Shown here: positions 2,457 to 5,457 of the stretch, piece after piece
Layout of the letters: each line of letters starts with the position of its first letter
Position numbering within the stretch: position 1 is the first letter of the stretch
Assembly: GCA_031273185.1 (NCBI GenBank)
Contig: JAISSG010000116.1
Coordinates: 1 to 5,764, forward strand
Source of the DNA: Treponema sp.
GTDB lineage: Bacteria; Spirochaetota; Spirochaetia; Treponematales; Breznakiellaceae
Length of the DNA: 5,764 bases
Direction: 5' to 3'
Made by a program: the position numbers and the translations under genes
Notes under the pieces: generated by a model
What the model saw: only the letters and a program-made list of their open reading frames with translations
Databases searched by the model: none
What the model was told of the DNA's origin: nothing

Positions 2457-2833
2457 CAGCGCCTCTCTATAATTACGCCGACTGCCATTCCGCCGAGGAA
2501 TGAAAGTCCGCCGCCGATAAAAATATTCCGCCAGTATTTCCGGCGGTCAATCTTGAAAGTTTCGATGGTCATATTGAGCATGGCGATCTCCGGCATGAAC
2601 CGCAGGGAGGCGGCCTTGTACCCCTCGGCGTATGCCTCGCGTACCGCCGCGTCAATCTCCGCCTCCGCCGCTTCCATCAGCTCCAGTACCAGCGTGCCCG
2701 AATAAAATTGCTCCGGCTCGATCCCGTAACCGTTGCTTTGCGCGTCCGGCAATTCCGGCGGCGTCTGCGCGTAACTGATCGGCGTTAGGAGCAGCAGAAA
2801 CAAGATCGTCAGCAGGGGTATTTTCAATCTCAA
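2456..2833 (-). CDS. Exported small membrane protein with signal peptide and C-terminal membrane segment; spanin-like position
   Basis: A 125-residue protein starting at TTG, chosen because GAGGAGG lies 6 bases upstream and there is no ATG until far inside the hydrophobic-to-helical region. Residues 1-22 form a clear signal peptide (MRLKI, a leucine-rich core, then PISYA before Q23, a type I cleavage pattern). Then come a Pro-rich stretch (TPPELPD), an amphipathic helix at about 49-78, and a second membrane segment at about 104-122 ending in ERR. No lipobox cysteine is present, so this is not a standard outer-membrane spanin lipoprotein. The signal-plus-C-terminal-membrane layout recalls single-gene spanins, and the gene is overlapped in another frame by its upstream neighbour in the manner of Rz/Rz1. 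A lysis role is inferred from position only. Confidence 0.72.
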   Translation of the reverse strand: MRLKIPLLTILFLLLLTPISYAQTPPELPDAQSNGYGIEPEQFYSGTLVLELMEAAEAEIDAAVREAYAEGYKAASLRFMPEIAMLNMTIETFKIDRRKYWRNIFIGGGLSFLGGMAVGVIIERR

Positions 2834-2966
2834 GTTTTACCTCCTCGGGCGTTTTGCCGGCGGCTGCGGAATCGGCCCTCCTTCCGAACAGACTCCGCAG
2901 GAGCCATCCGGCAAGGAAGACCAGCCCCGCGCAAACGACGGCAAGGACAGCCACCAGCTTTTTCAT
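2652..2966 (-). CDS. Small membrane protein overlapping the next gene out of frame; i-spanin-like position
   Basis: A 104-residue protein beginning MKKLVAVLAVV. I use the ATG at 2966 because it overlaps the holin stop as TGATG; an in-frame extension further upstream would lie inside the holin gene. Its SD is weak (AAAGAA-like), suggesting coupled translation. A membrane helix spans about residues 4-24 with basic residues on both sides (KK before, RSLFGRR after). The rest is a small hydrophilic helical domain (EEVKLEIENTPADDL, then ADQLRADAAGIAGRAKQRL in outline) and a Gly-rich tail. A cysteine at residue 12 lacks a proper lipobox (Val at -1). The last 182 bases are shared with the following gene in the +1 frame. 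Location after the holin and this nesting resemble Rz/Rz1, but no family was recognised for certain, and the Gly-rich tail may be poorly constrained. Confidence 0.6.
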   Translation of the reverse strand: MKKLVAVLAVVCAGLVFLAGWLLRSLFGRRADSAAAGKTPEEVKLEIENTPADDLVSAAPNADQLRADAAGIAGRAKQRLRDRAGAILFGHAGTGADGSGGGGD

Positions 2967-3256
2967 CAAAACGTTATTTCTTTGTCGCCGAGGGCGGTGG
3001 TTATCTTTTTCAATACCGCCTCGTAGGCGAACACCGAAAAAGCGAAGATCACCGCCCACCAGAACCAAACTTGCTGGGTTTTGTCAAAAAAATCCCCCAG
3101 CCGCAGCAGCCATGCGGCGCCGCCGGAAAGCACGGCGGGTATCCACACGCGGTAGCCCTTGAGCCGGTTCTTGCCGTCGAGCTTCTTGATGAGTTCCGCG
3201 AAGACTATCACCAACGCGATAGCGATCACGATGAACACCGGTAAAATGTTTGTCAT
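2966..3256 (-). CDS. Phage holin-like small membrane protein
   Basis: A 96-residue, strongly hydrophobic protein with three likely membrane helices at about residues 4-22 (ILPVFIVIAIALVIVFAEL), 37-53 (VWIPAVLSGGAAWLL) and 62-80 (VWFWWAVIFAFSVFAYEA), with short charged loops (KKLDGKNRLKG; a KK after the third helix). Size and three-helix topology suit a class I holin, which makes inner-membrane lesions that release or activate the endolysin. It lies directly downstream of the endolysin gene, which supports the lysis role. SD GGAGG is 4 bases before the ATG. A 6-bp G+C-rich hairpin sits just upstream of that SD (3268-3282). No specific family motif was recognised, so the name rests on topology and position. 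Confidence 0.8.
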   Translation of the reverse strand: MTNILPVFIVIAIALVIVFAELIKKLDGKNRLKGYRVWIPAVLSGGAAWLLRLGDFFDKTQQVWFWWAVIFAFSVFAYEAVLKKITTALGDKEITF

Positions 3257-3290: not shown

Positions 3291-3740
3291 TCAAACACGT
3301 ATCTCATAATGCGGCCAATCAGGAGTGGACCAATCAGCGCCGCATACAAGTCCTGCCTGTTTCCCGCAATCCCTGATGGTTTCAAAAAACTTGAGGTAAT
3401 GAGCCATATCCCAAGTCGGATTCCCCCTTCCGTCTACAGGCAGCACGTCCATAGCAAGGCCGTCGATATGTTTGCTTTTCAGCGTCCACGTTATGACATA
3501 ATTATCTCTTTCGCTCTGAAGCAAATATAATCCGGCAATTGCCCGTTTTTTATTTACTTCCTCAAGAGACTCCCTTCCTTGCGCATAATACGCTTGTTGG
3601 ACTTCTGGCCTGCGCTTTCCCTCGAATACGATGTATTTGTCATCACCCAGAGCATTATCAAGCTGTTCTAGGAAATTTTTAAAGACCGGCTGCGCTGCCG
3701 GAACAAGTTCCGCTAACATTTTTCTGCTGCGTTCGGTCAT
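3291..3740 (-). CDS. M15-family endolysin (L-alanyl-D-glutamate / D-Ala-D-Ala type peptidase)
   Basis: A 149-residue zinc peptidase that cuts the peptide stems of peptidoglycan at the end of infection. The zinc ligands are visible: H91 and D98 in SKHIDGLAMDV, and H144 in DWPHYEI, the usual H-x6-D...H pattern of VanY/M15 enzymes. Upstream, EGKRRPEVQQAYYAQGR (about 40-56) is the typical substrate-groove segment. There is no signal peptide, so release depends on a holin, which is the next gene. An AGGAG SD lies about 10 bases before the ATG; it overlaps the right arm of a 13-bp palindrome. The length fits the compact single-domain phage endolysins; no separate cell-wall-binding domain is present. 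The region between about residues 57 and 85 is longer than in the shortest members. Confidence 0.92.
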   Translation of the reverse strand: MTERSRKMLAELVPAAQPVFKNFLEQLDNALGDDKYIVFEGKRRPEVQQAYYAQGRESLEEVNKKRAIAGLYLLQSERDNYVITWTLKSKHIDGLAMDVLPVDGRGNPTWDMAHYLKFFETIRDCGKQAGLVCGADWSTPDWPHYEIRV

Positions 3741-3753
3741 TTCTTTAACGCTC

Positions 3754-3766
3754 CTGTACGGTACAG
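3754..3766. promoter_or_regulatory. Perfect 13-bp palindrome at the endolysin ribosome binding site, candidate operator
   Basis: CTGTAC-G-GTACAG is a perfect inverted repeat with a single central base. Its right arm, in transcription direction, shares AG with the AGGAG SD of the endolysin gene. With a one-base centre it cannot form an RNA hairpin using full arms, so a protein-bound DNA operator is the likelier reading. It lies in the gap between the regulatory genes and the lysis cassette, where a late/lysis control site would be expected. The binding protein is unknown; the two HTH proteins just upstream are obvious candidates (inference). Confidence 0.45.
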
Positions 3767-3815
3767 CGTAATGGATGTGATTTGTAAATACTCTAAATGG
3801 GATAAATGAACTAAA
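3767..3815 (-). promoter_or_regulatory. A+T-rich gap probably holding the lysis/late promoter
   Basis: This is the only real intergenic space in the window (about 90 bases between the HTH2 stop and the endolysin start), and it is markedly A+T-rich on the upstream side. I could not find a well-spaced consensus -35/-10 pair. Weak elements such as TTGGAA and TTATCC or TATTTA exist but do not match well. An activator-dependent promoter, as for the Mu lysis genes, would look like this. The exact promoter is not defined. Confidence 0.35.
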
Positions 3816-3842
3816 ATAATTCCAACTGCGTCACAGGTTGGA
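3811..3842 (-). terminator. Terminator-like hairpin at the end of the regulatory block
   Basis: On the minus strand TCCAA-(C bulge)-CTG pairs with CAG-TTGGA around a TGACG loop (3821-3842). It is an 8-bp stem with one bulged base, followed at once by the T-rich ATTATTTTAG (3811-3820). The stop codon of the HTH2 gene lies in the loop. This looks like a moderate intrinsic terminator that would separate early/middle transcripts from the lysis operon. The stem is not very G+C-rich, so efficiency may be partial. Confidence 0.5.
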
Positions 3843-4182
3843 GTTGTTGGAGCAAAACCGCTCGAGGTCGTAGCGCGCGACGCACCAGTTTCCTTCGTCG
3901 TCTTTCCACGCCGGCAGCTTTTCCCTGTAGATGAGGCGGTAGACGGTCAGGGGCTGCGTCGAAAAGAAGTCCGCCGTCTCCTGTATAGATAAAATAGCCG
4001 GTAGGCTCTCTATCTTTTCTTTCAGGGTGCTGCTTATCATAATCAGCTACCGCATCCGGCGCCAGCCGCCAGACCCTGCCTACTTTGACGGCTTCGATAT
4101 TTCCCATTGCCACAAGGTAGTACACCTGATGTGGCTTTAGGCGCAGCGTACGCGCCGCTCTTTTTACCGACCACAACATCAT
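3811..4182 (-). CDS. Excisionase-type HTH protein 1, with long out-of-frame overlap
   Basis: The open frame is 123 codons, but only residues 1 to about 50 look like protein. SVKRAARTLRLKPHQVYYLV, GNIEAVKVGRVWRLAPDAV and ADYDKQ in order match the excisionase/MerR-type HTH_17 fold (helix, turn, recognition helix ending in VYYLV, wing with GRVWRL). A very strong SD, AAGGAGGGG, precedes an ATGATG pair; the second ATG (4179) has better spacing (6 bases). The start lies inside the 3' end of gemA. Beyond residue 50 the sequence is Arg/Leu/Pro-rich (QGKAAGVERRRRKLVRRALR), lies over the HTH2 gene and runs through the terminator-like hairpin, so it is probably a readthrough tail rather than a selected domain. 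The original stop may have been lost, or a frameshift may once have joined HTH1 to HTH2. Likely a DNA-binding regulator in the Mor/C position; target unknown. Confidence 0.65.
   Translation of the reverse strand: MMLWSVKRAARTLRLKPHQVYYLVAMGNIEAVKVGRVWRLAPDAVADYDKQHPERKDREPTGYFIYTGDGGLLFDAAPDRLPPHLQGKAAGVERRRRKLVRRALRPRAVLLQQLQPVTQLELF
3831..4040 (-). CDS. Excisionase-type HTH protein 2, nested within the HTH1 frame
   Basis: A 69-residue protein. Residues 16-63 (ILSIQETADFFSTQPLTVYR, LIYREKLPAWKDDEG, NWCVARYDLERF) follow the HTH_17 pattern: 'S-x-x-E-x-A' first helix, 'TVYRLI' recognition helix, 'KLPAWK' and 'NWCVARYDLERF' wing. It shares the same signature positions as HTH1 (S..A, VY.L, A.K, W), so the two may be related. 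The ATG follows the gemA stop by two bases (TGATTATG), which favours coupled translation, since no strong SD is seen. A TAG five codons upstream blocks N-terminal extension past about 4052. The gene lies entirely within the longer HTH1 open frame, +1 to it. Probably a DNA-binding regulator of the adjacent promoters; not of the Mor/C family by pattern. Confidence 0.72.
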   Translation of the reverse strand: MISSTLKEKIESLPAILSIQETADFFSTQPLTVYRLIYREKLPAWKDDEGNWCVARYDLERFCSNNSNL

Positions 4183-4633
4183 TCCCCTCCTTGATATCGG
4201 TATCGGGATTGAACCCGGCCTTCCAGCAGATATCCCGCAGGGCGAGTATGAGCGCCGATGCCGCCCGTCGGGATAAAAAAGAAACGTCGTCGACCTTGCC
4301 GATGCGTTTTACCATGCCGCGCAGGCTTTTCTCGTCCTTGGCCCGGCTGGCCAGCACCCACAGCCCTTTGATGTAATACTCCTGTCGGCGGCTGATCATG
4401 GCGGGATTAGTGCCGGGGATGGCGCTGCGGTATTTGTTCAGCCCGCCATGCGACGGCAAAAACCCAAGATGCAGAAACGCGCCCATCACCGTGTTGAACT
4501 GCAATTCCGTTTCAATATCCTTCGCGCTGGCGACCCCGGCCCCGGAGAGGATCGCGCGGTACGCATCTTCATCGAGGCCAAGCTGTTTTTTGGCGAGGTG
4601 AATTATCGCAAGGCGGGATTTTTGGTTTTGCAT
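4043..4633 (-). CDS. gemA: GemA / Mu gp16-like regulatory protein (DUF1018)
   Basis: A 196-codon frame. Residues 1-145 carry the DUF1018 pattern of Mu GemA: MQNQKSRLAIIHLAKKQLGL and DEDAYRAILS at the N-terminus, then MISRRQEYYIKGLW (79-92), and a C-terminal helical part with LSRRAASALILALRDICWKAG (about 120-140). In Mu this protein is linked to early regulation and effects on host DNA supercoiling and replication genes; its exact role here is an inference. The start ATG has AAGGGGG about 8 bases upstream and lies 31 bases inside the end of the HNH gene. The last ~46 residues (after about 150) lie over the HTH1 gene and read as Gly/Ser/Lys-poor-complexity sequence (APKATSGVLPCGNG, QGLAAGAGCGS), probably an unselected extension. 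In another frame a TGA falls exactly at the HTH1 ATG, so an indel may have removed an earlier stop. Confidence 0.85.
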   Translation of the reverse strand: MQNQKSRLAIIHLAKKQLGLDEDAYRAILSGAGVASAKDIETELQFNTVMGAFLHLGFLPSHGGLNKYRSAIPGTNPAMISRRQEYYIKGLWVLASRAKDEKSLRGMVKRIGKVDDVSFLSRRAASALILALRDICWKAGFNPDTDIKEGNDVVVGKKSGAYAAPKATSGVLPCGNGKYRSRQSRQGLAAGAGCGS

Positions 4634-5217: not shown

Positions 5218-5457
5218 CTACTCCAGCAGTTTTTGAAGCGCAGTGGGAACTTTTGTTTTTTCTGAGTTAAAAGCGTCTGCTGCTTTTGTTGCATTTAGTA
5301 ACAAATTTCCCCCGGCGATAATCTGCTGCGCAATTGTGCATTTGGCTTCCGCGCGGCTTATTTCCTCTTTGAGATCGTCCCCTGTAATGCTGCGGTCTCC
5401 GACATACTCAAGCGCTTCAAACAGATGATCGTTCAGTGTTAATCTTGTCTTTTCCAT
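5218..5457 (-). CDS. Small phage protein of unknown function
   Basis: A 79-residue soluble protein with the pattern LTLNDHLFEALEYVGDRSI, TGDDLKEEISRAEAKCTIAQ, QIIAGGNLLLNA. I recall the 'LN-HLF-ALE-L ... L--EI-RA--I---A--II' pattern from small early proteins of several phages, where its function is not known. It looks all-helical, with no signal or membrane segment. The start ATG has GAGGAGA 6 bases upstream, and the stop TAG is three bases from the start of the HNH gene, so the two are probably co-translated. It follows DUF3164 by about 58 bases, the second-largest gap in the window. Confidence 0.82.
   Translation of the reverse strand: MEKTRLTLNDHLFEALEYVGDRSITGDDLKEEISRAEAKCTIAQQIIAGGNLLLNATKAADAFNSEKTKVPTALQKLLE

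Follow-up and report, generated by a model that had tools for sequence, protein, structure and literature searches.

A nested pair of HTH_17 genes in the Mor position of Mu-like treponeme phages, a candidate late-gene activator with a clamp-type tail

The stretch of DNA analysed here (the window, 5,764 nucleotides of a Treponema sp. contig) carries on its minus strand a run of genes whose order resembles that of Mu at the boundary between early and late genes: DUF3164, PHROG 2044, an HNH endonuclease, gemA, the nested genes that I call HTH1 and HTH2, an M15 endolysin, several small ORFs, a gene of the Mu Gp27 family and a large ORF. The last stands where the terminase large subunit is expected, a label given by position only, Pfam returning no match. 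The PHROG 2044 entry is a 79-aa protein (5218-5457) whose match is labelled 'RNA polymerase beta subunit', which looks doubtful. The gene for the HNH endonuclease shares 31 bases with the 5' end of gemA (4603-4633), and in the lysis region the minus-strand frames 2456-2833 and 2652-3068 form a second long two-frame overlap, perhaps a spanin pair.

An earlier note on this DNA had placed gemA (4633-4043), HTH1 (4182-3811) and HTH2 (4040-3831) in three minus-strand frames, each +1 to the previous, and these coordinates and frames are borne out, as are the 140-base overlap of gemA with HTH1, the enclosure of HTH2 entirely within the HTH1 frame and the position of the HTH2 ATG two bases past the gemA stop. 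gemA, of the GemA/Mu gp16 family, encodes 196 aa (Pfam PF06252, 49.1 bits), and its final 46 or so codons overprint HTH1. The HTH1 frame is open from 4182 to 3811 (123 aa); homologues favour a start at the second ATG, at 4179, which gives a protein of 122 aa (3811-4179) and a spacing of 6 nt to the Shine-Dalgarno sequence. The latter, to which the note had also drawn attention, is AAGGAGG at 4192-4186, and a Shine-Dalgarno-like site is found here in 35 of 37 loci.

HTH1 consists of an N-terminal HTH_17 domain (4039-4170), a long tail read across the whole of HTH2, and a C-terminal QLELF motif of the beta-clamp-binding type (3814-3828, from codon reading) that lies wholly past the HTH2 stop. 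HTH2 (3831-4040) is an HTH_17 protein of 69 aa. The note's assignment of both proteins to HTH_17 agrees with Pfam PF12728, which HTH2 matches with 29.6 bits, above the cut-off of 27 and with support from the alignment, and HTH1 with 22.2 bits (E 1.8e-4), under that cut-off. Comparison of loci points to a weak Shine-Dalgarno-like site for HTH2, GGTAG (4047-4051), within the codons of HTH1. Five bp past the HTH1 stop codon, matrix scans locate a candidate promoter element, TTATCCCATTTAGAGTA (3789-3805), followed 18 bp on by a putative -10 hexamer, TACGCT (3765-3770), and by the first gene past the element, the M15-peptidase endolysin (3291-3740; Pfam PF13539, PHROG 465). All of these features lie on the minus strand.

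Related loci were collected in two surveys. The first queried IMG/VR and GTDB genomes with gemA, HTH2 and alignments and gave 39 distinct HTH1/HTH2 loci, the window included and identical HTH1 DNA counted once; one of them (L051) is cut by a contig end. HTH1 is open through all of HTH2 in 37 of the 38 distinct full-length loci, and in the open loci it ends 17-68 nt past the HTH2 stop. The exception (L080), from Brucepastera parasyntrophica, has an HTH1 that stops after 54 aa. The 13 loci that came from genome scans belong to ten Treponema sp. MAGs, one Spirochaetales MAG, Brucepastera and Ca. Treponema caballi; going by isolate and sample codes, many are presumably from termite guts. The second survey covered 390 genomes of the order and returned 30 loci, of which 11 were repeats, 13 were new and six (L116-L121) were dropped as other HTH proteins; most of the listed matches were short and generic to HTH domains, and two further matches with stops (G152 and G256) stand outside the counts. 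HTH1 is long in ten of the 13 new loci (L103-L108 and L111-L114), that of L105 ending 7 nt before the HTH2 stop, and short or cut in the other three (L109, L110 and L115).

The earlier note had proposed that homologues with short, non-overlapping genes at this spot would mark the layering as a local mutation or a sequencing error. Short HTH1 genes do occur, in four loci (L080, L109, L110 and L115) of which L109 and L115 adjoin gemA, whereas long HTH1 genes prevail in both surveys. The complete genome of B. parasyntrophica holds two HTH1/HTH2 copies (L080 and L101) in opposite orientation and without gemA, both with an intact HTH2 (69 aa) and an HTH1 frame broken by several stops; that genome also contains a third short gene resembling HTH1. 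Because the layout is common to loci down to 25% HTH1 identity, an indel that removed the stop of HTH1, as the note had considered, is not supported, and because the layering recurs in many contigs, sequencing error or indel can be ruled out as its source.

The family surfaced through gemA, HTH2 and alignment queries and not through HTH1 alone: a single-sequence search of viral contigs with HTH1 returned no relative, a 60-aa piece of HTH1 found one protein, and tblastn of HTH1 against named phages gave no match. Against the same database the HTH2 profile found 162 proteins and the HTH1 profile 29, with differing candidate numbers (433 and 1083). Gene callers seem often to miss the overprinted HTH1. 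In L015 the HTH1 domain carries an insertion of about seven residues with the frame kept. One genome (G149) has four places on a single 3.37-Mb contig, L113 among them, with near-equal score and length, as one would expect if a single transposable phage were present several times.

When the HTH2 protein was kept and its codons were resampled, the HTH1 frame was open by chance in 1.6% of trials, which treat the loci as independent although they are not; this was run on 37 loci, L080 (closed HTH1) and L051 (contig-cut) having been removed beforehand. The converse test leaves HTH2 open in 26%. A pairwise test drawn from real relatives (15 disjoint pairs from 31 loci with a 69-aa HTH2) gave a mean z of 1.44, with 14 of 15 pairs positive. 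Leaving stops out of account lowers the mean z to 0.57 (12 of 15 positive, the distant pair L057/L058 at -3.3), so the higher value is owed in part to stop avoidance. It is thus the openness of HTH1 and its end that are under selection, and the middle of the tail is loosely constrained at most, as for a flexible linker. The layering is genuine and conserved, and dual coding of the DNA is near certain.

The run-on of gemA over HTH1 has a different standing. Resampling predicts that the gemA frame should be open over HTH1 in 20% of cases, against 21 of 37 observed; the run-on is not family-wide, yet it is commoner than chance predicts, an excess that may reflect descent from a common ancestor. 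The C-terminal extension of gemA varies between homologues (read lengths of 127-198 codons from the match start) and the stop likely drifts. Since the stop varies, a conserved gemA coding tail is not supported family-wide; given the excess of open frames, descent or a role in coupling could nevertheless account for the run-on.

A stop in the gemA frame precedes the HTH2 ATG by 2 nt in 15 of 39 loci; in the others it is placed elsewhere, gemA itself not being confirmed everywhere (e.g. L057). Of the compact and translationally coupled regulatory pair that the earlier note had offered, the compact pair with nested genes stands, and coupling of HTH2 translation to the gemA stop is possible. In the alignment the HTH2 ATG falls at one position in all of the 37 loci, under a start rule that favours ATG. 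It is preceded by a GGTG-like Shine-Dalgarno site inside HTH1 codons, with G at -11, the third base of an HTH1 codon, in 30 of 37 loci (background: in the rest of HTH1, 253 of 623 fourfold third bases are G).

The window's HTH1 ends V-T-Q-L-E-L-F, and the last five residues (3828-3814) fall beyond the HTH2 stop codon (3833-3831). Across loci the corresponding ends read QLELF, QLDLF, QPDLF, QPELF, QAELF, QMELF, QFELF and QMKLF, and in distant members QLEFDF, QLEFAF, QLEFLF, QLWFDF, QLMLPF, QLFFDF, QLEFCF and similar. A loose form of the motif is found in 34 of 37 HTH1 proteins and the strict form in 32; the loose form is missing from L053, L056 and L057, the last of which holds QNSLF. Ten further long HTH1 proteins, judged by eye, comprise eight with a clear motif and two (L106 and L111) with a weak one. 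Of the 1293 ORFs called mechanically in the phage stretches L122-L149, 13 have a strict-motif end, all 13 of them HTH1, and 25 a loose one. The motif codons vary synonymously between loci, and selection therefore acts here on the protein.

Such an end, of the terminal Q-L-x-L-F type on a flexible tail, is what a beta-clamp-binding peptide looks like: passages of PMC4549789 give Q-L-x-L-F as the C-terminal consensus, and a passage of PMC3716654 also gives QL[S/D]LF. The hosts offer a comparison of their own. Of seven DinB-type loci from seven genomes of the same order, four carry QTELF, QLSLF, QPGLF or QPDLF (the frame read in L153 and L156 is maybe not DinB), and QPDLF also occurs in the HTH1 of L008 and L046. 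MutS-type loci, taken as a second motif check, showed QxxLF in 0 of 14 and loose look-alikes only, so the host evidence rests on DinB.

Structure prediction divides HTH1 in two. AlphaFold gives it a mean pLDDT of 65.8, with about 90 over residues 1-50 and mostly below 50 in the tail, which is predicted to be disordered; HTH2 has a mean pLDDT of 92.4. The best Foldseek folds for the two HTH domains are BldC and Xis (6ama and 4j2n; probability 1.00, E 0.011 and 0.025, none below 0.001), and the PHROG matches of the pair are to excisionase. The HTH1 profile run against PDB sequences found just two prefoldin chains (E 0.013), which I take as chance.

The position of the pair invites comparison with known activators. 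In Mu the gene directly after gemA is Mor (PF08765), and its counterpart in D3112 bears the annotation of a late transcriptional activator, the PF08765 scan having covered only Mu of these two. Mor/C (PF08765) was found in none of the 20 records tied to the pair (17 virus records and 3 genomes), with 2 matches in the Mu control; the absence is not proof, because the virus records are possibly fragmentary. All of the 20 but Brucepastera have GemA (19 of 20), and each of the 17 virus records has the C-terminal domain of the Mu transposase. HTH1 and HTH2 themselves did not match PF08765 either, HTH_17 being their only match in Pfam.

Downstream of the pair, the 17-bp element given above recurs in the 3' flank of HTH1 at a subset of the loci. 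In the 339 kb made up of the window and 11 phage records, a matrix built from 18 HTH1 flanks, some of them weak, found 26 sites of at least 15 bits; shuffled sequence amounting to 1.69 Mb gave 3, from which about 0.6 would be expected. Seven of the sites are training sites. The 19 outside the training flanks lie before head-protease-like genes (ten), tail-fibre-like genes (five) and CHAP- or M15-endolysin-like genes (four). These last four belong to phages with other genes after HTH1, in which the element stands further on, before the endolysin-like gene; one product was scanned and the rest were judged by eye from the N-terminus. Scanned products behind the element include a head maturation protease (PHROG), a tail fibre (PHROG) and a CHAP endolysin, and two others gave an unknown PHROG or no match. 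In L002, L005 and others a resolvase-like gene or other ORFs sit between the HTH1 stop and the lysis promoter, a spot that looks like a moron site.

The spacing around the element is nearly fixed. The first reported ATG comes 29-31 nt past it in 22 of 26 sites, and a -10-like hexamer, [TC]ANNNT, stands at +18 in 23 of 26 and at +17 in two more (counted by eye). Read from the letters, element and hexamer together are arranged like a promoter that depends on an activator and lacks a -35 box, and the short distance from element to ATG suggests transcripts that are leaderless or nearly so. At the head-protease gene, 12 of the 15 records examined have the element with at least 15 bits, among them the distant G013 and G014, and three score lower; G016 has the variant TGATCCGATTTAGAGCA at this gene, which recurs once in its genome, and the head-protease gene of G011 and of G017 is without the element. 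A second matrix, from ten head-protease promoters that were chosen with a pattern shaped on the element, detects it immediately past HTH1 in 13 of 38 loci, where shuffling gave 5 in 1900 flanks. All 13 have a hexamer starting TA at +18, and in 25 of the 38 loci the element next to HTH1 scores below 8 bits. What ties the element to HTH1/HTH2 is position and the missing Mor/C only; another early protein could be the activator.

Taking these results together, I lean slightly towards the view that HTH1/HTH2 take the part of Mor/C and activate the late genes in a family of Mu-like treponeme phages, and that the HTH1 tail couples this activity to the replication clamp. The observations behind it are the conserved frames of HTH1 and HTH2, the conserved clamp-type end, the position after gemA, the lack of a Mor/C match in the related records searched and the near-fixed spacing from the element, which precedes several late genes, to the -10-like hexamer; from them I infer the activator role and the clamp role. 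HTH1, HTH2 or both would bind the 17-bp element, which would replace the -35 box, and once bound would recruit RNA polymerase. The flexible tail of HTH1 would meanwhile grip the beta clamp of the host (DnaN) where it is loaded on phage DNA undergoing replication, and with the tail held in this way late transcription would wait for replicative transposition and scale with it. A more far-reaching version, in which the host beta clamp is a co-activator of late transcription by way of a de novo overprinted HTH1 tail, the nested HTH_17 pair replaced Mor/C, and a coupling like that of T4 was invented independently, I hold more tentatively, at a little under an even chance.

As to origin, a tandem pair of short genes is the likely ancestor because the HTH1 domain and HTH2 belong to one family (Pfam and cross-matches). 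A short HTH1 gene would probably have lost its stop and run on over HTH2, giving the overprinted tail. The short HTH1 of Brucepastera, which has no gemA beside it, is consistent with a tail that is kept in the phage setting only, though L109 and L115 are short next to gemA.

The most serious competitor, in my judgement unlikely, agrees that HTH1/HTH2 are the late activator and gives the tail another task: QLELF would link HTH1 to the replication or transposition machinery, or block host replication, with no direct role at the promoter. Replicative transposition needs the host replisome, and these phages carry the Mu transposase. Furthermore, parts of PMC4549789 describe C-terminal QLxLF as common in transposases. 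However, the motif sits here on a DNA-binding protein in the Mor slot, no other strict-motif ORF occurs in L122-L149, the transposase included as far as examined, and the closest functional parallel, T4 gp33/gp55, is transcriptional in the passages of PMC2988020 that describe it.

Less probable again is that the two proteins are of the excisionase type or control a repressor, as the annotators' 'excisionase family' would have it, and that another activator reads the element. The HTH_17 or Xis fold and the PHROG excisionase matches are what one would expect of such proteins, but these are phages with Mu-type transposases, the gene position is that of Mor, and Mor/C is missing from all 20 records. 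Transposable phages with a Mu-type transposase are not known to need an integrase-type excisionase.

It is very improbable that the long HTH1 frame is a by-product, only its HTH domain mattering and its tail being held open by the HTH2 codons and chance: weak amino-acid constraint in the overlapped part and the existence of tail-less HTH1 would suit this, but 37 of 38 open loci far exceed the 1.6% expected per locus (independence assumed), and the QLELF-type end past HTH2 is kept despite synonymous codon changes. Least credible is the programmed +1 frameshift raised in the earlier note, which would join HTH1 to HTH2 as a two-headed regulator and would fit a start of HTH2 in the +1 frame inside HTH1; the fusion lacks support because HTH1 reads alone to its own conserved C-terminal motif past the HTH2 stop, and HTH2 has its own ATG in 37 of 37 loci with a Shine-Dalgarno-like site.

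The earlier note had overlooked the Mor slot, the promoter element and the clamp-type end of HTH1. Should the clamp-coupled activator be real, it would be a second and unrelated case of clamp-coupled late transcription, built from the host clamp and a simple HTH protein, so that the trick would have evolved more than once, and it would give a concrete mechanism tying late genes to replication in a transposable phage. In addition, the tail of HTH1 was apparently made by overprinting, and this case is widely conserved. A literature search of titles and abstract openings, with many subscription papers outside its scope, returned no report of the nested pair, of a clamp-binding excisionase-type protein or of the element.

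Set against known systems, the pair shares with Mu Mor/C (PF08765) its place directly after gemA at the early/late boundary and differs in belonging to another family (HTH_17), in consisting of two nested genes and in carrying a clamp-type motif. The element sequence is not known to be shared with the Mu Mor/C sites. A further likeness is an upstream site common to several late promoters, including those of head protease and endolysin (PMC4287176, in part); the C-dependent promoters of Mu, as described in passages of PMC4461284 and PMC4287176, are Plys, PI, PP and Pmom and are expressed once phage replication has begun.

With BldC and Xis, small winged-HTH proteins that are HTH_17 and MerR-like, both HTH domains share the fold (Foldseek, E above 0.001). 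Neither BldC nor Xis is known to have a clamp tail or a nested partner, and in this HTH1/HTH2 would differ from them. The beta-clamp-binding transposases of IS families have the C-terminal QLxLF in common with HTH1 (PMC4549789, in part), whereas in the treponeme phages the motif sits on a regulator and not on the transposase.

Finally, replication-coupled late transcription by way of a sliding clamp is detailed for T4, whose late coactivator gp33 and sigma-like gp55 bear short C-terminal clamp epitopes, that of gp55 on a divergent, probably unstructured linker (passages of PMC2988020). HTH1 would be similar as a small transcription protein with a predicted C-terminal clamp-binding epitope, a parallel in working at most and not in descent. 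T4 brings its own clamp (gp45) and the sigma-like gp55, whereas in the treponeme phages the host DnaN would serve and DNA would be recognised by way of the HTH_17 domain.
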